NCBI RefSeq assembly: GCF_037975245.1
Contig: NC_092568.1
Location: forward strand, 41,899,631-41,963,630
DNA: 64,000 bases
Direction of reading: 5' to 3'
Origin: Apostichopus japonicus
Lineage: Eukaryota > Echinodermata > Holothuroidea > Aspidochirotida > Stichopodidae
The notes below the pieces were generated by a model. It saw only the letters and a program-made list of their open reading frames with translations. It was not told the DNA's origin and did no database searches. Positions 7,391-58,784 of the stretch are shown here, piece after piece; position 1 is the stretch's first letter, and each line of letters begins with the position of its first letter. The translations under genes were made by a program, and so were the position numbers.

Positions 7391-7582
7391 AACAATCTCA
7401 TTTGAACCCGGTGGGAGAGAGCAACCAGTTCGCCGTCGTAATCTCTAATATTATCTTGGTGTCTGTGGTCTCATCTCGACGTTCTTCCCCAAGAACACAC
7501 CAACTGAGACCTTTATATTTACATCCTCCCTGATTACACTACCGTCACTATATTGCTCTTGTACTTACCCAAGATGAAATTA
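7391..7582 (+). pseudogene. Decayed TM6-TM7 exon of a GABA-B-like receptor
   Basis: The stretch from CCGGTGGGAGAGAG to CTTGTACTTACCCAAG matches exon 17 of gene A (27529-27717) almost word for word, including CTGTGGTCTCATCT and ACATCCTCCCTGATTA. Small deletions break the frame: the CTGTATCTATAACATC region is shortened and the TGCTGC of the TM7 part is missing. The similarity runs into the intron (GATGAAATTAGTATGAT against GGTGAAATAAGTATGAT). This is a dead exon copy. It lies downstream of the terminal exon at 1492, so it belongs to a different lost copy or to a local exon duplication. Confidence 0.85.
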
Positions 7583-8963: not shown

Positions 8964-9200
8964 ATGGCCAGTCATTTACTCACTCTTTGTGTGTTGATCA
9001 TAGTTTGGTGTTTAGTTACGCCTGTTATTTGTTACAATTCATCGAAGATTCCTCTCTATATTGGTGGAAATATGCAGCTGACAGGAGGATGGGATGGTTC
9101 TGGATGTGTGGTATCAGCTGAACTAGCACTGGAACAGATCAACAACCGATCAGATATTCTACCAGATTACGAGCTTAAGATGGTTTGGAGTGATTCACAG
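8964..9200 (+). CDS. Gene A exon 1: signal peptide and first flytrap strand
   Basis: 79 codons, phase 0, donor CAG|GTATGT. A hydrophobic leader (MASHLLTLCVLIIVWCLV) is followed by IPLYIGGNMQLTGGWDGSG and ELALEQIN, the standard opening of a GABA-B ligand domain. Confidence 0.92.
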
Positions 9201-12200: not shown

Positions 12201-14299
12201 TTGTATTGAGATTGTGTCTTGTTTTAAGATATATTTCAGTCTATTGTATTCTTGTACATCTTCTTTCCTAACAGTGCAATCCAAGTAGAGCCGCTCGGAT
12301 TCTCTTTCGTCACATCTACAGTGAACCTCAAAAGATCCTTATACTGAGTCCACCTTGCTCACCCGGTGCTCAGTTGGTTGCATCGACTTCGAGATATTGG
12401 AATTTAATCAATGTAATTATACATATTTGACCTGTTTCTACTGACAGTACGTTTAGATTTTTATCTCTATGTTAGGTTTGAGCCAGTGGCGGCGGAACCG
12501 GGGGGGCTTGGGGGGGCTCAGCCCCCCACTAAAAAAGTTGAGGGGGCAAATGCATGATAAGCCCCCCCAATATTTACCAAGGCTCCGAAACGTGCATCTG
12601 CCCATTTTTCAATGCATACTTGCCGATCTGTCCGATGCACACGTATACTCTATAGGTGTAATAATTTTAGTAATTGCTGGGGGACCCTCGGCCCGTCCCC
12701 TGGCTATAGACCACATTGTCACCCCAACCGCGTCTTCACGAGGTTGGGAAGCAGTGAAAAGTGGAAGCAGTGAGTGTGAGTACCGGTAAGCGTACCACAA
12801 CTTCGTCTTAGGCCAATGACTTGCCTCATTTCAGCCAGTTCTCCAACATCCCCTTACTTAGTGGCGGAGCGTCCATATATACAGTCAGGGGGCGGAAGCC
12901 CCCCCCCCCCTGACGGACTCAAATGGACTGCTGGCGCCCTTTTCAGCTTTTCACTACTTTTTACTTATTCGCGATTTTTGACTATTTTATTGCGCTCTCA
13001 TATACCTATTGACATTTGTCATATTCTGTTGGTTTAATTTTCCGACAAAATGGCGACGACACCTATTTATTCTCCGTTTATCTGCAAATTAGCAAGGCCC
13101 CGGAAAGGGTCATTTCCTGCAGTCTAGGGAGTATCTTTAATCAAAAAATTTCTGTACGCTCCGCGCCAACCTGTGGTGGCGCTCCGCTTAGATAGTGTCG
13201 AAAGCGCCCCTACAGACCATTCTTGCCCTCCCTGACCAATACTCTAGCTCCGCCACTGCCCTTACTACCCTCAAAAACATCTTTGCGAGTACACTACGAG
13301 TAATAGCTACTCTCTTAAAAAACCATCGAATATACAAATTACAATGTTTTTACAGACTTTTACGTGCAATCTGAGAAAGTGCAGGCTTGAGACCCATATT
13401 TTAGGGCTGGGTATTCGCAGCATAAAACACTCGGAAAGTGCCGTTTCCGGCCATCTGGGGGTTTGAAAAAACCCAAAATTTTCTTGTACGCTCCGCGCCA
13501 ACCGATGCTGGCGCTCCGCTTAGGTAGTCTCCACACATTAGCCCCCCCAATAATTTTCCCGTTCCGCCGCGCCTGGTTTGAGCTTCTCCAAGTACAAAAA
13601 TAACGTCGTTTATTTTTAAAGTATGATCTTTCACTAAAGAATTGCAAACTAGTTCCAATTATTCTAGTGTTAATTTAGATCAATTAGACATTACTTTGGA
13701 CTTTTGGAAAATTCAACTTTTGTCGCTTTTTAACAAAGCAGTGCTGCCAGTGCTCAAACCAAACCCTTTTCAAACATCGAGTCAGTAGACTACTTTCCTC
13801 AACTTGACTCATTTCGTTTACACAGAAGTTCCTGTATGCAATTATCAATTTGAATAGACGCATTGTTTGCTCATCGTCTTCTATTAAATGTCTTATCAGC
13901 TTCACCTGATTTCAATTTTGAAAAAAAGGAGGTTAGTTTCAATCCTGGTTTATATTTTCTAAATACACAGGTCTTTATCGTACTGTTATATATAAGATAC
14001 CGGTACGGTACGTCTCCATTCCGAAATCTCCAAATTTCCATCATAAAGGGTTTACATAAATATTGCTACATGTATATTGCAGTTCTTTAAAGAGTGGAAG
14101 AGGCGGCGAAGGTGTGGGCTATTGAATTCCTCATTTGTTTTGGGAATTTCCGAATTTCCACAATCCATATGAAGGTTTCATTTCAGTTATTGTAGTTCTC
14201 CAGGTGAATATAGACTTGTCAATTCAACAAGGTTTTTTTCACACTTCAATGCATTTATATAATATTTTAATTTGTTCGTTCTTTATATAGATATGTATG

Positions 14300-16427: not shown

Positions 16428-19412
16428 CGTGTCTGTGTGTGTGTGTGTGTGTATTAAGATATTTCTGCTTAATGCCGACCTCTCCAGGCCAGTTAACATT
16501 GCTGTTAACTATTTTTACTTTCAGAACCTGAATGTTTATTGATAATTCTTTCCTATTTACCACTGTCCATAATTATTGTGTAATCATGCATTCAGATTGT
16601 CTACGGAGCGCTTAGTCACGATTTGGCAAATCGTGTCAAGTACCCTAACGTTTACCGTGTTAATCCGATCGCTACAAACTTATTCAACGAAGTCTATTTC
16701 TGGTTGATGAAAACGTATGGCTGGCGGAAGATAGGCTATTTGTCAGATAATGCTAACTCAAAGGTAGGCTGCAAGAAAAAGTGTGTCAATATATTTTGTA
16801 CATTAAATATTAGTTTATTTTAGTGACCATCCATCGCCTTGAGTTTTAATAACAGTTGGTTATTATAGTAAGAAATGCTTAAAAGCTCAACCATAACTAG
16901 CAATATTTCCACGTATCTAATAACGAAGTATCACCAATGTTTCGTAGTAATTTATTGTTTGTATAATTTTCTCAGATATAAACGAATTAATTTTTGTTCG
17001 TCAGGATTGATTTATGAATCTTGTAATGTCATTTTGTAGGCTCAGAATTTATTCATCGAGCAGGTTAAGTCCCTTAACGCAACTCTAATTCCAGAGCAAA
17101 TTAATGATGTAGCGAAAAACCAAGTTGAGAATCTCATGGTAAGTATAAGGATCTAATTTTATTTTTCCTTTCTAGTTATTCTTATTTTATTTTTTGCTTT
17201 AAATTGAAATTATCACGATTACCATGGATCATAGGGTTAGGTCTATATTACTTACGTTACCAATAATTAATGTTGTCGGTATTGCAGAAGGAGCTATGTT
17301 AATTTTCGTTTACAATATTAATCGCATTTGCTAAATTATGACTGATAATATTTGCGAATGACATATTTGTTCAGTAATTTTCTTGTCTGATAAATTTGAA
17401 ATATTTGAAGCAAATAAATGTAATATAATTATTTTTAAAATTACCTTAAACTTTGATTTGATATGTTATTGCTAACATTCTTTCCTACATTCTTCTCGAT
17501 ATTTATTCCATAACCATCAATTAAATAGCTATAAACTCATTAAAACATGATATTTTTAAACTTAGTATTAATACTACTTTTTGCATTATGATCTGTTATA
17601 TTTCATGTCATTTTCTCTATGTGTATTATATTTCTTGTTATGTTATTTCGTATGTTTCAAATTCAATAATATTTTGAATTCTTGTAGAGTCAAGATGTTC
17701 GAATATTTTTTTCAATCGTGTATGAAGCTCAGACAAGGTTAATTTTTTGTGAGGTGAGTTTCAGTATTAATTGACAAATCATTTTTAAAACCTCCCTATA
17801 GCTTAGCCTGTGTTCCTTCGTTTCTTACTTTCATTCATTTGGAGCTATACTATAGGTTCCATTTGAATTATATTTCGTATCAAATATTACTTTTGACTCA
17901 CGTAGATCATGTCCAACCACCTGTCACGTTATATCACATAAGCCGTTACCAAAAATATAAAAGCAAGTGATATCTTTAAAGACCTATAACTACACTATTA
18001 TTTCATGTAATGACTTTTGTAATTACAGTGTCACTTTGGGGAGGGGGAGGGGGTATTTTGTTCTGTTAAACAAATGTTTTTTGTTTTGTTTTTTTGCATG
18101 TAAACTTCTGTTATTTTAACAGACGTTTTATGCTAAGAAAGTGGGTTACCCAAAAAAAAGAAGTATTTTTCCCTTCATTGAAAATATACAGGAAAATCCT
18201 GTAAAATATTGCAGAATATGTCAGTTTTTTATTTTTACATGTAACATTCTGTGATGTCATGTAGTTTAAAGAATAAGTTTGTTTGCAATGTCATGCTAAC
18301 TTGGAAGTTGAAGAAACAAGGTTCAAAGGAATGGTATACGACAACCTCCATCGTCAAGGAACTTGACCGTATGGTTAAGAAAAGAATAAAATCCAACCCA
18401 CTAAAGTATCGTGTTAAATAACCGTCAAAATAAAGTAATTTCACAGACGAAGACCCATACAATACAAGGATAAAACTGTATAGGGTTTATAACATTTAAG
18501 ACTGTATACTTCACCTAAAAGATACAGTTAAATAACAGTCACCATATAGTTATTTTACAGGGGAAAAAAAGACATATTGCAAGTAAAAAGACTGTATAAA
18601 TAATGTCTCCAGACTGTTTACTTTACATAGAATTTAGTGTACAATACGGTCGTCATAGTAAATTTACAAACAAAGACTTTTATAATTCAAGTAAAAACTG
18701 TATTAAGAACATTTTTAGACTGTATAGTTTACCTAGATTATCTACTGCTTGAATTTACAGACATATCCTGGAAACTCTGCTGCCAGAAAGTTTTATTTTT
18801 TAACAGACATTTTTAACAATTGTGTACTTATTGAAAATTATGTTGTATTAAGTTGTATAGTCTAATCCAGTGATATTTTTATTCCATGGCGTGTAAATCC
18901 CCGGGTTAACCATACCCGTATGTTTCCAAGTGTCATTGAAATATCCCATACCAATTAGTTGGTTTGGAAGAGAATGCATGAAAGTATTCGTATCGTGTTT
19001 AACTTGAAATTACAGCAATATACATTTGAAGTTTTCATTGTTAAATCATTTCTTAGTTAAGTTGTAATTGTATATCGTTGGAACGTTACGTCGTTCACGT
19101 CACGCTGTCTTTGTGTCCAGTACATTGTCATATTTTACCAATCTACAGACTTACAAGGCCGGATTTTATGGTCCGCATATAGTTTGGGTGATACCATTTT
19201 GGTATAAGCCAAACTGGTGGTTGATCGAAGATGTGAACTGTACTGTAGAGGAAATAGAAGAGGTACTTTTCTCAACCACCGTTCTTGGAGTGGACGTACC
19301 CCTCATCAGTCCACTGGAGAAACCGACTATTTCCGGACTCGTAAGCTTTCAGTTAGCCACGAATTGTATCATTGATAACACATCGGCAAATTTGAGTTCC
19401 CTTTTTTTTTGA

Positions 19413-19472
<60 letters not shown>

Positions 19473-22400
19473 TGATGCAGAGAATAGTGATTTGCCGCAA
19501 GAAGGTCTTCTAAGAAAAGAGAGTCTCTGTAAATATTGGGCTGCAAATGATCGATACGATCAGTTCCCGAACACGTTCGAACTTTATCGAATCTGTCTAT
19601 AAATCCCTCATGTCTCTTTTAACTAGTTTTCGCTCTGGCCTTATAAAGCAGCCACATCCCACCATTCAAACACAAATATACACCAAACAGATAAATGAGT
19701 TCGACTCTCGTGAAGCTTAGTAAATCCACGAGAAACGATCAATTTCTTTCCTTAAATGATATCACTGACTTGTCATTGTCATCATATCTTCCATGTCGAC
19801 TGAATTTGATATTCACTGAATATGACTTAATATTACGAAAGGAGAATAAAGTTACATAATCATAAATGAAACATGAAAATAAAACAGCAAGGATGCAACC
19901 CTGCAATTTTAATATTGAAACGATATCAGGTTTTTAATAGAATTTTATAAAGTTTTATAAGGTGTTTAACAATTAAAAATTGTTTGCAAGATGCCAACGT
20001 GCATGTCAGTTTTCTGCAAGCGGTAAAACATTGCTGATATGTATGATACATTGACCTTTTATATCTATATATTTACCAAAGTATTCTCTGATTTTGGTTG
20101 TACATTGGTCTGCAGCTGGCCTAGTAATTAAATCTTCACACGGTTGTTTGTATTCACCTCACGTTAAGGCTTATAAGCTTCTCTAAAAGCTAGGAATATC
20201 TTGCTCAGTGTAGGAGTTAGGATTTTATGATGGCGTATCAGAGGCTATTGTTTTGTCAACGTGTGACTGCTATGTGTGATAGCAAAGTGGTGAACATTTA
20301 AGATTTTCTATGGAATGTAAACAGTTTTGTAACTGAAACTAATGCCAGTATACAAGCAGAAAAGATATAAAAGCTATGTTGAGGCCAGTAATAAAACTTA
20401 AAACATTCCAGAAAAAATGAAAACATCACTACCAGGTACTTAAACAATTGGATAAACAATTGTTTGATTGATTCATCAGGTGATTCAGTGGCTTTGTGGC
20501 TGAATGAATGCATTAATTACTTATTTACATTCTGGCATTTTATTTTGCATCATGTTGTCAGCATATTAACTTGAAGTATGTCACTATATTTTTGATCGTT
20601 TATTTTCATTCGATTTAAAGACTCCAATCGGATTTGTAGAAGAGACGAAACATCGGTTAACTTGGCCTAAGTACCAAGCTTATACTTTCAATAGTTATAC
20701 AGCTTACACTTATGACGCAATATGGACTATTGGTTTATTACTAAACCGCTCAGCAGGAATACTCCAAGAATCTAGTAGTCCTAAACATCTTGAAGATTTT
20801 ACCTACACAGATGTCGACTTGTACCAACTCTTCCTGGATGGATTATCAACGACAGATTTCTTTGGTGCTTCTGTAAGTCACATGTAGCTTTTAAGAGGGT
20901 TTTTAAAGTTTATTAAACTGTAGGTTCCGTTTCTAGTTTCCCTCATTTATCATTTAGGATATACAACAATCGTCAAAATAAAATTTACTGACCAGAGATT
21001 TGCAGAACGATAAAATTGTAATCACATGAGTTTATTCATTACTTTGAAATTTCTCTAAAACATAAAGAGCTTATGTCCCATTAATTCTGTAGGGACACGT
21101 GAAATTCGCAAAAGGAGAAAGACTTGGTGGTTCTGAACTATTTCAACTACAAGGTACGTATACATACATCAGTGCAGTCAGTGGTCTTGGATTCTCAATA
21201 TACATTTGACCACTAAACGATCACACAATTTAGTAACCATGAACGAAGTTACATCGAACGTTGGGTTTTGAGGCCTGTTGGCAATATTGGGACAGGTTGG
21301 ACATGTTTCCTACGCTCTGACCAAGTGAATCGCTCAAAATCCTCAAAGCAGAAAGGTTGGCAAAGGTTGAAAACTTCAATACTCCTAGAGTAATGATGCC
21401 CTTCTATATATGTCCCCACTACAGCACCCCGACAAGAGCACCTACAGCTTCTATAGTACCGATGACCCTTTTAAGATGCCCCTCCTGTGCCAATTATTAT
21501 TTTCCATTTTAGTTCGATGTCCTCCTGACTGGTTTCTACATACTCGTTATTGTTTTCTGTTGTCTAACAACCAAACGGCTGATTGGAGTCAAGCTGTCAC
21601 GTCCTGTACCATAGCGGGCGCAAACCTTGCGGATTTGTCAACGGACGGGGAGATTTCGTTCTTATCAAGAAAATGGATAACAAACTGGTACGGTAATACT
21701 AGCTTAATATTGAAGCAATGTAAAGCACACCTGGTTCTAAATATGAAGTTATTAATGATTTAAGCAATACATTTCTGAATAAATTAACATGTTAGCAGCG
21801 AACATTCTGTACACACTCTCATAATGTATATGTTAGATTATAGGTCATGATTATAAAACTTACAAGAGAAAAATAAGCCGTCAACAGACTACTCAACTAC
21901 TACAAAAAGCCTGAGTATGGTAAAGATATATAAGTAACAGGGAATAGCGTTTCGATCCAACCCGGATCTTCTTCAACTAGTATCGATCCTACTAGGGTGC
22001 AAACATCAGCCCCGTTAACTTTTATATAATTATCAAACTTGGAATAGCATCAATAATAATTTATTCTTGAATTGCAGGCGTGGTGGTCGCCAGACATTGA
22101 ATCAAACAAAATCAAACATCGATGCAGGCACATCAGTCTGGATAAGGGACGAATCACGTGACTGTGCCTACGTTGATTTTGGCGCAGAAAATAAAGTATT
22201 CGCTGGGGATTGTAGTGAAGAAAGGGCATTTATTTGCAAGGCTAAAGCAGGTTTGGAAATTCACTAAGAATCTTACAAAATTGTATCCCATGTGTGTCAT
22301 GTAACTGAAGCTATTATTAGGATATGGATCACCCACGACTGTTTTATTGTTTGAGCTCATGCTACTCCTGGCAAATGTGAATTTTTACTCATCGGGTATG

Positions 22401-25400
22401 GTTACTTTACCGAGAAATATAAATGTACAAATTAAGCAGATGAAGATTTTCAAAAACTCATTTCGACTCATTAACATAGAAGTGTACGCTTCACAGCTGT
22501 TCAAACCGGCTAGATCCATCCATGCCGGGATATGCGAACACAGACATACACCATTAAATCGCGTGGTAATGATATTGCAGTTCATTTTATGACAAAAAGG
22601 GGCCATTAAACGCCAGTGAATAGCTTAAATTATCTATATAAGCACCATGTAGATAAAATCACCCGATGATCTTCAGAAAATAGGTTCGATCTTAGCTCCA
22701 ATGTTCTTTATAACTATTTCTATTGTGTAAAGTAAGATGGCTTGACGTTTCGATCCTAGCAGGATCTTCTTCAGAGTCTAAATGACAAGTGACATTTGTC
22801 ATTTAGCCTCTGAAGAAGATCCTGCTAGGATCCTGCTAGGACCAAAACGTCAGGCCAACTTACTTTACACATTTTCTTACACAGGCTCTCTAGTGGATAA
22901 GTAGTTTGCTAACAGTTTTATTTTTATGTTAGTTTTATTTTATTTTAACTATTTCTATTGTTACAGCTATTGTTGGTGTTTCACTTGCAGTTTACACCTC
23001 AGCTACAGATGAAATGCTTTGGAAGACTCCCATCGTATGGGCCGGTAGGATGAATCATTTCTACTGCTCACTGGTTTCCTGAAAACAACGGTTTTAATTA
23101 ATAAAATGGTCCATGCGCCTCCATTTGCTGCAAATATGCTTTCACATATTATACAAAGCATGACTCTTGATTATTTTGAATGTATGATCAACCATTTAAG
23201 TTAGCCTACCTTCTTTCATATGTTTATGTCTCTCTTGATATATGATTATCTAGAATCTAGTCTTTATTACAAACCGCTGGTTATACATGACCATATTGTA
23301 ATAACGCCTTAGGTTTATGCTTAACTGGATGGACTATTTTCTCCATAACTCACTTTTGTTAATTCCTTTTTTGATCATTAGTTTTTGCCTTTGCTTTTTT
23401 TTCATCTTTTTACTTTAATCAGGTGGCGAGGTTCCTCTGGATTCCCCGATTACTATCCCTATAACGACTGATAGAATAGAGAGACTGATACCAGCATATT
23501 TACATATTTTGGTGACGTCATTTTCATCAGTTGGAACAGTGATTATTCTTATAACCACCTTGCTCATCATTCGTTATATCAGAAGAGGGTTTGTTCTCAA
23601 TTTGTCATTTTGTTTTATGCTTTCTTGAATAAATAATCAATAGTGTTGTTTGTGTATGATCAATGCACTTATGTTCAACTGATCACTAACAACAAATCAA
23701 ATTCATTTCACTTATGTCAGTAAGAAAATAGCAATTTTACAAAAAGGTGAATCATAAATTGAAATTAGCTTTTAATCATAAAGACTTTCAGTATTATATA
23801 TTTCCAGTGTTTGCACTGTTTTGACACTCACAGATCACGTCTCGGCCTGGATGCTGTCTTCGATTACGTCACACTATTCGGTGGTTTCCTAATGTTTGTC
23901 TCAGTGTCGTGTACCAAATCTGATCTGCTGCCCTCTCTATCAGACCAACATCATCTCCTCGTTTGCAAGGTTATAAGAATTACCATGGTCGCATCACCCA
24001 TTAAATAAACCTTTATGACTGAGCAAGAAACAACATATCAAGTTATGGCTGAATCTTATTCATAACTGTTTTTTCCGTTGAAATATCAACCAAAAATAAA
24101 AGAACTATTAGTAGTATTTATCAGTCTTAAATATTAAGCTTTTAAATTAAGATAAGTAAGTGCCAGCTTATCGAATTTCCAAGAAGATTTTTTTTCAAGG
24201 ACAAACTTTCTTACTATCTATTTATATATATCGTATGAAAGTCAGCAAATATAAGACAGGAAAATGTATACAAATGTCTATGCATGATTACTAATGATAA
24301 TTTTATACCACAAAAGCTGAGTAACCTACTAAGAAGCGAACAAGTGGGTCACATGTAAAGCAGGACTGCTCCCTGATTAATAGGTGTAATAATATTTTCA
24401 TTTTGATAACGCGTTTTTCTTTACTTCGTTTATTTTCACTCTTGATGCATAGATTCACGGTGCCTTTACTTCCCTGGGATTTACAATAGCTGTGTCTACG
24501 CTGGTTGCCAGGATATGGCTGGTTTATGATTCCTTTACATCACATGGTCACGTGGTAGGTGATACACGGTCCAGTCACCATTGTAACACCAATATATATA
24601 AATATATATATATATATATGCATACATACATACATGTAGCTGAGAAGCAAAGGTGCTTCGTAGTTAGTTAGATTATCATTCCATAAAGCTATCATTCAGA
24701 CTTAAACATTCTTTTCTGTTTTATCTTTCTCAGAACAATAGCGTTTTAAAATTTGGTGGCATTATTGCAGCTTTCTTAACATTTGATGTGATCTGTCTAA
24801 TTCTGCAAAGCGTTCTTTACCCTGTTAACCTCAAATCTGTGTCCTCGGGAAGCGCGGTGAGCTTTATTTTACACAAATTTATTTAATAAATGCATAAATG
24901 AAGATCAATCCATACTAACTAATACAAACACAAATCAAATGAAATAGGTGAGCATCTTGAAAATGTTAGCAACAAGCAATTGATTGTCACAGAATATAAG
25001 TGACTAGAAAACATAAATGATGATTGGTAGTAACTATTCTCTTTCGAAAGGACTAGTGATACTTGACTTAACGCAACATCGTCATTATTATACATTGTAA
25101 CAGTCTCAATCAAAGTGGAACGGGGTTGAGATGGGATCAAATTGCTTGTAACCAGTCCCTATTTTGCGGAACTTTTGAAATAGTATTCCGTTTATTTACT
25201 TATTCCTGTCAGGTGGATCCAGAGGATTCCAATCATTTCATTGAATACTACTTCAGTGAATGTTCCTCGGGAGATGGAGTCATCCCTCTCCTCCTCTCGT
25301 TTGCTGATAAAGCTGTCATGCTTCTCACCGGGTCATTTCTATCTTATGAAATAACACAAGTAATGTATCTTCCCTACTTTTGCATGGACATACATACACA

Positions 25401-27133: not shown

Positions 27134-30100
27134 ATGGAGGGAAACGACAAAGGCAAATGAATATATATATTTATATAGCGGAAGGCCCGTGGTTCGAATC
27201 CCGGTGGAGGCTGAGAGTTTTTTCACTGTTCTTGATTTTCCAACTCATTACGATTTTCATTTATATATATATATATATATATATGCTTATATATTTACTT
27301 GTCTAATACTTATTTATACAGCATGTTGTTAATCGAGTTTCACACCTGCAGTTTGCGGCGATCATCAGACAACTGGACGTAAGCGGCTGTGTATGTGACC
27401 TTATTTCTTCCTAGGCACGGCACATGAAAGTGTTTTTGTTAAATGATTTGCATATAACACCTTCAGAATACGTTCTCTTGATAATATCAATTCGTGTGCT
27501 TTCCTTTTATATTTTTTATCGTCTTTAGGCTAACTTGACTCCGGTGGGAGAGAGTAAGCAGGTCGCCATCTGTATCTATAACATCATCTTATTTGGTGTC
27601 TGTGGTCTCATCTTGACGTTCCTCCTCAAGAACACACCCACTGCGACCTATATATTTACATCCTCCCTGATTATCTGCTGCACTACCGTCACTATCTTGG
27701 TCTTATACTTACCCAAGGTGAAATAAGTATGATGAACTACTAAGCTCCTTAATTTTAAATTCAAGATAATTCTAATTTATGCAAAGTTGTCAAACGTAAT
27801 GGGTTTGGCCGTGATAAGCTTCACTTTGAAGAAAAATTATCATAAATGCGATTACCAACTTAAGACCTTTGATATCTTTATATTAACGCATTTCTGACGC
27901 ATTATTACGCTGGTTGGTTTAACGATGGTTGTCTGAACTAAATATTCCTGTTTCTTCATCCTAAGTCAAGCCAATGTCAGTTGCTAAAGAATCGTCTTTT
28001 AACCATTCATTATACGTGTTTACGTGTTAAGTTAACTAGGTAGATAAAATTTCTCATTTCAGATCATCTATTGGAGCAAAAATCGAGAAATAGACGAAAC
28101 TCATGAATTAAGAAAAAGTCAATGTACGTCATCAACAGCTGAAGTTTCATCGGTAAGCTGTCTAAATCACGTCATTCTTACCTATACAGCCTAGCATTGT
28201 CACAGGAGGCTGGTGAATTATTCACAATAATCAAATATATCGCTGTAGTTAAAAATTAATACTAATAATACTTGATATTACACACAAAGTAGAATGTTGA
28301 TTGTTTGGAAACTTTTTTTAACTGTATTGAGCATTTAGTTTCAAATAAATAGTTGAACCCTATTTCTTATTTCCTATTTCCAATGTAAAAATTCTAATCT
28401 CCTTAAAGAAGGAATAGGCCTACTGTGACTACGAATAATCAACACAATTCAATGAGAATTGACTGTCATTTGATGAGGCGATTTCTTGTGATGCTTATTG
28501 GTCTATTGAATGGTTACATCGCAAATAACATCTAACTTGAATGATGTCGAGCTTGTGTAAGCTGTAGGTGTCGTACAACAAATCAATTGCTCCATTGACT
28601 AACACACTCAATTCGTCACATTCCAGGGCCGCTAGATCAAAGATAGAATGTATCAACTGACATGTCCTACTCCTCCGTATCATAGCTGATGGGTTGAGCA
28701 TAATATGTCACATACATGTTTACCCACCAAGACCGTTTAGATTTTGAGCTAGAAGAGGTCAAAATGTAGCACAGTACTCCTCAACCCATCTGCCACCTCT
28801 GCCCGCAGATTACACTTGTTTCAGCCAGGAATGTCTAAACCACCTTCATTCTTCTTCCATCCTACCAGTCTTCAGACTATCAGCAGTCTATTTAATACTC
28901 TTGAACATCTAAGCATAAAGAAAAATGATAATAACTGAAAACATGCCTAAACAGTCACCTAAACAGGACCATTTAGGACTAGTCTCCGTTTTTTTAGGTA
29001 GCTGTACACACATGTTTGTATTACATTCAGACCGAGGACCCCATTGTATTTCCCATTGTTCAAATCCACGTACCCTAACCTTAACAATACCCCATACAAT
29101 AGAATTCTTCCGAGGAAGTGGAATTCTTTTGTTCAAGTCCTCGGTCAGAATACAAAACAAACGCACTACTCTCAATGTGGCACGGTACCTTTATCTTCAC
29201 CTTTATCTTCACGAAGCACTTCATTTAAACAATTTTTAATTTTCGGCTTGACTTATTTTCTAATAGTTCAAACAGTTCAAGTTTACTCTTATGGTTTATA
29301 TTACTCACCATATAAATAAACTTTGTAATTTAGATCTACCAATATTTTGATTTTTTGTCAAGAACTAATGATAATTTAATCGTAAGAAACTTTCTCTATT
29401 TTGGTGTCACTTGTTTAGGCCTCTGTATCAACTCATGAGAATCTGCGAGGCAAGGTACCAAAGGAGTTATTGGAAGAAAATATCCGACTGAAAAAGCAGT
29501 ACGAGGAGGTAAAATATATCATCATATACCGTTATGTTTTATACTTCCTCTAAACGTTCGAACAAATCATTTGATATCGTGCAACCGGTACACAACGTAC
29601 TTTATTGAAATGTTTTTTTTTTTTTTTTTCATTTCTGTCAGGTTGTGGTGTCTTCATATTTTGTGACAATATGACTATGAGAACTGCATCTTTAGATGTA
29701 ATAATAACAGAGGTGTTTTCACCTTTTGTAGGTATTATCAGCTAGAGTAAGGTAGTAACGTTATAAATAGTATGGTAACTGTATGCATGCAGGATCGGGA
29801 ATATTCAATGAGAAGGCTGTTGACTTCTGATTTCATGTTGACAAAATGTGAAGTGATTTGATTTAAATGAATCTGTCGTGTAAATACACTGGGTCCAGTA
29901 GGCGTGGAAGCCAACAATAGTATAAGCCACGGCAAAGTTTGGTTCTTGTCATTCATTGTTAGATTCATTAACCTCTTGTTCTACTCTGACTTTAATGCTA
30001 CCTTTATGTATATATATATATAGATATATTTAAATATAGTTTACTACAATACTACATATATCTGTATACACATATACGTAGGTAATGTTTATATCTAGCG

Positions 30101-34617: not shown

Positions 34618-58784
<24,167 letters not shown>

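Follow-up and report, generated by a model that had tools for sequence, protein, structure and literature searches.

A C-type lectin-like domain predicted within the Venus flytrap of GABA-B-like receptor genes of Apostichopus japonicus

A GABA-B receptor with an extra extracellular module is already known: the sushi isoform GB1a, whose additional domains serve partner binding and sorting (PMC7411975). Other unusual invertebrate combinations, in which a flytrap, or C-type lectin-like domains (CTLDs), are joined to another signalling domain, are the Venus kinase receptors and Hydra Sweet Tooth (PMC2680970). These are receptor tyrosine kinases, and the available part of that paper names no CTLD placed within a flytrap. 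Here we describe a 64,000-nt stretch of the 671-Mb Apostichopus japonicus genome (C8:41899631-41963630, hereafter the window), in which two genes, A and B, are predicted to encode GABA-B-like class C G-protein-coupled receptors (GPCRs) carrying a CTLD. The sushi domains of GB1a are N-terminal and lie outside the flytrap, whereas the module found here has another fold and would be nested within the flytrap itself. Among the best matches of our open-literature searches, titles and abstract openings described no GABA-B-like receptor with a CTLD. Both the receptor class and its component domains are familiar; for their nesting we found no description within the reach of those searches.

Position of the lectin-like exons in the receptor

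The models of genes A and B were rebuilt from splice sites and paralogy, that is, from genomic sequence. Gene A (8964-29508, forward strand) comprises 18 exons, with AG/GT at each junction and a frame open throughout; exons 1-8 encode the flytrap and exons 12-17 the seven helices (Table 1). Exons 8 to 11 (21093-23044) lie at the positions given by a first-pass annotation of this DNA, and they join in frame and stop-free between AG/GT borders, with phases 1, 2 and 1 at junctions 8-9, 9-10 and 10-11. By tblastn of the gene A frames we found gene B (18 exons, 34660-58094) in the same window. It has equal exon order and phases and CTLD exons of its own, and identity between A and B in homologous exon blocks is about 37-62%.

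The Pfam family ANF_receptor (PF01094) matches protein A at 101.6 bits (A50-404) and protein B at 130.3 bits (cut-off 25.4), the match ending at the CTLD border in each (A404, B429). The seven-transmembrane (7TM) family 7tm_3 (PF00003) scores 72.5 bits in A (A573-834) and 78.2 bits in B (cut-off 33.5), covering profile positions 7-251 and 6-251 of 251. The stretch from the flytrap to the first transmembrane helix (TM1; A 521-573) contains by reading no cysteines and thus no cysteine-rich domain. GABA-B subunits are the best PDB matches of gene A (7ca3_A, whole-sequence E 2.3e-86; A19-404 against 7ca3_A 19-405). In this alignment to GB1 the first block runs as far as A404/GB1 405 and the next one starts at A527/GB1 412, with GB1 406-411 alone unaligned between them. 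The flytrap stretches of exons 8 and 11 are therefore neighbours in GB1, as the first-pass annotation had asserted, and GB1 has about six residues where gene A has about 120, CTLD included. The interrupted element is the C-terminal flytrap hairpin, which we take, from class C structures, to lie in the lower lobe. Its coding sequence is broken by the CTLD in genes A and B and unbroken in the GABBR1 and GABBR2 of the same genome, which have an intron at the same hairpin position. GABA-B subunits resemble genes A and B in combining flytrap and 7TM without a cysteine-rich domain.

A gene family on one chromosome

A search with protein B uncovered a tandem array on C8 around the window. The sequence covered there was 41735001-41993000 and 42013001-42023000, leaving out 41993001-42013000. 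Ten array genes have exons 9 and 10 between exons 8 and 11 (G2, G3, G4, G5, G6, G7, A, B, G10 and G11); the array gene G1 was covered from exon 12 onward only. Four further C8 loci carry the cassette, at 18.49 Mb (L022), 20.05 Mb (L024), 38.75 Mb (L026) and 3.09 Mb (L027). In all 14 fetched loci the CTLD exons lie between flytrap and transmembrane exons, and in 13 both exon 8 and exon 11 flank them; in the piece fetched for L027 exons 9 and 10 stand alone, flanked by flytrap and transmembrane matches. By match order only, five more cassette loci can be added on C8 (18.594, 18.708, 18.745, 18.883 and 20.099 Mb), the 18.883 locus with no transmembrane match listed and the 20.099 locus with a weak CTLD match (E 2.4). 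The nesting seen in the first-pass annotation is supported, but its single receptor gene has to be corrected to a family, with 14 fetched loci.

The array also contains lone copies of exon 17, some of them partial or broken (window 7396-7573; C8 41798177, 41830458, 41856024 and 41879679). They precede the first exons of A, G4, G5, G6 and G7 by about 1-2 kb and are likely scars of tandem duplication.

In all 12 genes with resolved splice sites, a set that leaves out G10 and G3, exon 9 is entered at phase 1, the inner junction has phase 2 and exon 10 is left at phase 1, and the inner intron cuts a common tryptophan codon. The phases of A and B come from their open joined frames. In the ten paralogues only sites of the expected phase were kept, so that the multiple-of-three length follows from the choice of sites; the tryptophan in all twelve is not explained in this way. 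Since the exon junctions are known from genomic sequence alone, exons 9 and 10 might be thought to form a separate small lectin gene that sits within a receptor intron and is never spliced to the receptor. However, their splice sites fit the receptor frame in the 12 resolved genes, a stop occurs in one of 14 loci only (G3, in exon 9), and gene after gene shows the two exons at this position. Frame, phases and recurrence bind these exons to the receptor, and we reject a separate gene as hardly credible.

The CTLD codons are under purifying selection. For eight of the ten pairs compared, the NG86 ratios of nonsynonymous to synonymous change (dN/dS, or omega) in the CTLD exons were 0.18, 0.27, 0.29, 0.62, 0.32, 0.32, 0.27 and 0.36; in A-G2 and A-B the synonymous sites were saturated and omega undefined. 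Omega is thus at most 0.36 in seven of the eight defined pairs; the highest value belongs to G6-G7, which was left out of the bootstraps. In six pairs, bootstrapped omega reached 1 in 2, 9, 0, 0 and 1 of 1000 replicates and, for A-G4, in 0 of 849 usable ones; the compared pairs have genes in common and are not independent. Flytrap dN/dS was 0.12-0.37 and 7TM dN/dS 0.22-0.44 in pairs with defined values. Comparison of A with G5 gives an identity of 77% for exon 9 and 73% for exon 10, while matches in the three surrounding introns cover 31-34% of the alignment length. With G6 and G7, which are closer to A, the identity of the two exons is 95% and intron matches cover 45-81%.

These values bear on two other explanations. 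Exons 9 and 10 could be an alternative cassette, included or skipped jointly, from which one gene would make either a plain GABA-B-like flytrap or the CTLD form. Phase-1 introns on both flanks mean that skipping would preserve the frame (in A and B, and in ten paralogues by phase-selected sites), and the gene A skip product, ..FQLQAIVGVSLAVYTSATDEMLW, would have a hairpin of roughly canonical length. A shuffled module needs symmetric phases too, however, and the CTLD is constrained like the flytrap and 7TM regions, as in a mostly included exon, so that we regard an alternative cassette as unlikely, though not far-fetched. Alternatively, the array genes could be decaying duplicates with the CTLD as a relic, as the stop and several missing exons of G3 and the shortened CTLDs of the gene A type might suggest. 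Since A and B are open across 18 exons and CTLD omega is low in all but one of the defined pairs, such decay seems very improbable.

Taken with the joined frames and splice sites and the GB1 alignment, the recurrence among paralogues, the purifying selection and the fact that GABBR1 and GABBR2 have the homologous intron empty support an in-frame nesting of the CTLD between adjacent flytrap strands. As read from these genomic segments, the nesting is recurrent, selected and in frame, a stronger case than was first claimed.

The empty intron points to how the cassette may have arrived. A gene on C22 clusters with human GB1 (support 100/99) and is GABBR1; a gene on C16 we take to be GABBR2 by the look of its hairpin, the tree having no human GB2. 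The GABBR1 hairpin is split by a phase-1 intron (22541033-22545927) after ..WTQIEQMR and before N-GTYHKIGYY, and that of GABBR2 (7754647-7755826) after ..HKQLQ and before D-HDEVKVAEYY. Eight CTLD exon queries run by tblastn against these two introns, the only ones outside C8 read for CTLDs, gave matches at noise level (best E 0.085 in GABBR1, none in GABBR2). A 65-residue query missed the GABBR1 hairpin although the fetched locus (L025) contains it, and that search was insensitive. No CTLD near GABA-B-like genes on other contigs appeared in a search with the 18.49 Mb CTLD, but this search also missed the window's own array and so does not speak against CTLDs there. The best matches of that CTLD outside C8 are single-frame CTLDs on C17 (13108248, 13335411 and 13536471; 33-34% identity, E about 1e-7).

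Because the canonical hairpin has a phase-1 intron, a module with phase 1 at both ends can enter there without shifting the frame, and the CTLD module probably entered this pre-existing intron. The common internal intron suggests a single insertion event. We propose that a phase-1 CTLD module would have gone into the ancestral phase-1 hairpin intron, probably once, with later multiplication of the gene along a single chromosome. Three two-exon CTLD genes were tried as donors (L028-L030) and rejected: their frame continues past WIG and their internal intron lies further downstream.

The lectin-like domain, the ligand pocket and a proposed mechanism

The first-pass annotation had called a complete C-type lectin-like fold. 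Six cysteines in the same long-form layout are present in 12 of 12 spliced CTLDs, a count that omits G3 with its stop and G10, whose splice sites are uncertain and whose piece as taken has four cysteines. The call has to be corrected for gene A, whose CTLD is a shortened form, a compact 115 aa with six cysteines and without WIGL. By a loose pattern, a WIGL-like motif occurs in six of the twelve (G2, G4, B, G11 and the loci at 18.49 and 3.09 Mb; in G11 the acceptor yielding the motif was chosen over a second candidate) and is absent from A, G5, G6, G7 and the loci at 20.05 and 38.75 Mb. The most canonical CTLD is that of the 18.49 Mb locus, with WYIGL and a Pfam Lectin_C score of 54.3 bits. Matches in the PDB to the gene A CTLD stretch are headed by DC-SIGN (E 2.5e-4), followed by CLEC2D, KLRB1 and NKG2D, and those to the CTLD at 20.05 Mb go down to E 3.2e-13. 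The latter, with the six cysteines in all twelve, rules out a chance resemblance.

A WND motif before the fifth cysteine marks Ca2+-dependent sugar binding; it was found in none of the 12 spliced CTLDs. DC-SIGN is a sugar receptor, and CLEC2D, KLRB1 and NKG2D bind proteins. With the CTLDs of mannose receptor/LY75, DC-SIGN and NKG2D/CLEC2D the present ones have the six-cysteine long form in common, as the PDB sequence matches of gene A and the 20.05 Mb locus indicate, but they have no WND and would sit within a GPCR flytrap rather than in a single-pass or secreted protein. Among the paralogues their sequences diverge widely. Like many lectin-like domains, the CTLD might mainly serve assembly, dimerising or binding a chaperone and sensing nothing, and both the protein-binding types among its matches and the missing WND would suit such a role. 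A common assembly role would, however, disfavour so wide a divergence between paralogues, and the top match is a sugar receptor; we consider it distinctly unlikely.

For the flytrap pocket, the described ligand contacts of GB1 are W65, S130, S153, H170, Y250 and W278 (PMC7411975). In eight array genes (G2, G4-G7, A, B and G10), W65 and S130 are each kept in 8/8, W278 in 7/8 and Y250 in 4/8. Two further residues, G151 and E349, we take to contact GABA in GB1 as well; G151 is kept in four of the eight genes, and S153, H170 and E349, the last beside an alignment gap, in none, which sets these receptors apart from GB1 and makes GABA an unlikely ligand. GB2 is likewise without the ligand residues of GB1 (PMC7411975), and therefore the loss in the pocket bears on the ligand and not on kinship. 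The array flytraps probably sense a small molecule other than GABA, which may vary between paralogues.

The mechanism that we propose is as follows. The CTLD would fold independently with three disulphides and, anchored at both ends in the lower lobe, would move along when the flytrap closes. The flytrap, with W65 and S130 kept but H170, S153 and E349 lost, would sense its non-GABA small molecule, and the CTLD, being without WND, would probably bind a protein partner, be it another subunit, matrix or another cell. A protein is the likelier partner than a sugar, though not strongly so, given the missing WND and the CLEC2D, KLRB1 and NKG2D matches. A partner on the CTLD would then stabilise or block the active arrangement of the lower lobes. 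In GABA-B receptors the lower lobes make an interface on activation and the linker touches extracellular loop 2 (PMC7411975); because the inserted hairpin directly precedes the linker, a bound CTLD could bias this lower-lobe and linker step. This scheme would accommodate the first-pass idea that the insertion might add a second ligand or a partner-binding surface and might couple to the conformational change.

We give a probability of about 0.6 to the joint reading that the two window genes belong to a GABA-B-like class C family of an echinoderm with a CTLD in the membrane-proximal-lobe beta-hairpin just before the linker, together with the origin and mechanism proposed above. Several observations weigh against it. 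In a Pfam scan of the full-length proteins, a check that the first-pass annotation had suggested, ANF_receptor and 7tm_3 pass in A and B but Lectin_C, at 18.8 and 16.7 bits, stays under its cut-off of 22.6. Of the isolated CTLDs, that of A passes at 24.9 bits; nine of the 12 spliced ones exceed the cut-off (7/10, and 2/2 in a separate set) and three fall below it (G5 18.1, G6 21.1, B 22.1). With its short length and lost WIGL, the gene A fold could be partly degraded. G3 (C8:41770851-41771325) has the stop in its CTLD exon, and exons 1-3, 5, 6, 15 and 18 were not found in the interval taken; it is probably a pseudogene. No firm inner splice sites could be assigned in G10, and the overlap of genes between pairs limits the selection estimates. 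A tree of hairpin and transmembrane stretches (11 rows, 175 columns) fits one origin, with weak support of 59/22, and a donor of the module was not found among the three loci tried. Finally, the protein-partner step is weak and its odds are slightly lowered, because DC-SIGN tops the gene A CTLD matches.

More tentatively, and with clearly more doubt than confidence, the 14 to 19 or more loci on one chromosome might encode dual-input receptors in which partner contact at the CTLD gates small-molecule sensing by a variable non-GABA pocket, an undescribed chemosensory or immune-type class C family. If so, such a receptor would signal a chemical only while its CTLD is in contact with the appropriate surface or matrix partner. 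In class C receptors flytrap closure brings the lower lobes together, and a folded domain nested there offers a natural test of where the flytrap tolerates or exploits an added module; its position could guide the construction of biosensors. The locus also offers a case of domain nesting through a pre-existing intron whose homologous empty site this genome still retains, and draws attention to a receptor family that is unstudied, in a phylum of little-known chemical senses.

Gene models and neighbouring features

Table 1. Predicted exons of genes A and B (window positions)
Feature	Coordinates	Strand	Content
Gene A exon 1	8964..9200	+	start codon; signal-like hydrophobic stretch (by eye); initial strands of the flytrap (..GGWDGSGC..)
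Gene A exon 2	12275..12412	+	flytrap
Gene A exon 3	16596..16763	+	flytrap
Gene A exon 4	17040..17138	+	flytrap
Gene A exon 5	17688..17753	+	flytrap
Gene A exon 6	19149..19340	+	flytrap
Gene A exon 7	20621..20872	+	flytrap
Gene A exon 8	21093..21153	+	flytrap hairpin, arm 1 (GHVKFAKGERLGGSELFQLQ); phase 1 at end
Gene A exon 9	21513..21687	+	CTLD N-terminal half, cysteines 1-3; entered at phase 1, left at phase 2 (shared W codon)
Gene A exon 10	22078..22250	+	CTLD C-terminal half, cysteines 4-6; entered at phase 2, left at phase 1
Gene A exon 11	22967..23044	+	flytrap hairpin, arm 2 (VSLAVYTSATDEMLW), linker start
Gene A exon 12	23423..23588	+	linker, TM1
Gene A exon 13	23834..23969	+	7TM domain
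Gene A exon 14	24453..24554	+	7TM domain
Gene A exon 15	24734..24856	+	7TM domain
Gene A exon 16	25213..25359	+	7TM domain
Gene A exon 17	27529..27717	+	7TM domain end (..LYLPK)
Gene A exon 18	29419..29508	+	cytoplasmic; heptad-like by eye (KELLEENIRLKKQYEE); last exon sought, model stops here
Gene B exon 1	34660..34959	+	
Gene B exons 2-7	36950-37087, 38350-38523, 40327-40425, 41629-41694, 42167-42364, 43649-43900	+	flytrap
Gene B exon 8	48947..49007	+	hairpin arm 1 (GDVSYSNGERLGNSDVTQLR), phase 1 out
Gene B exon 9	50169..50361	+	CTLD N-terminal half
Gene B exon 10	50995..51197	+	CTLD C-terminal half, starts at W/YVGF
Gene B exon 11	51566..51643	+	hairpin arm 2 (VAVYTAVTDEMIW)
Gene B exons 12-18	52363..58094	+	linker, 7TM, heptad-like tail

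Both genes contain repeated sequence in their introns. A repeat of about 1.1 kb, with translated blocks mostly 85-100% identical, is found at 12486-13549 (gene A intron 2) and at 45651-46729 (gene B intron 7). In gene A the intron that follows exon 10 shows by eye a fold-back at about 22727-22870, with an inverted repeat around ..CCTAGCAGGATCTTCTTCAGA.., perhaps a small mobile element. Elsewhere in the genome, COX1 fragments at C29:14745-31219 occur besides the mitochondrial contig C35 and are either nuclear copies or an assembly leftover. In the mitochondrial contig COX1 is an open frame of 517 residues when translated with the echinoderm code, and its frames give by eye the order COX1-ND4L-COX2-ATP6-COX3-ND3-ND4-ND5, which is a mark of echinoderms; code and order thus both suggest an echinoderm. 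At the start of the window, positions 2-1240 hold an open frame like a LINE-type reverse transcriptase, of which we take its FADD motif to be a mark.

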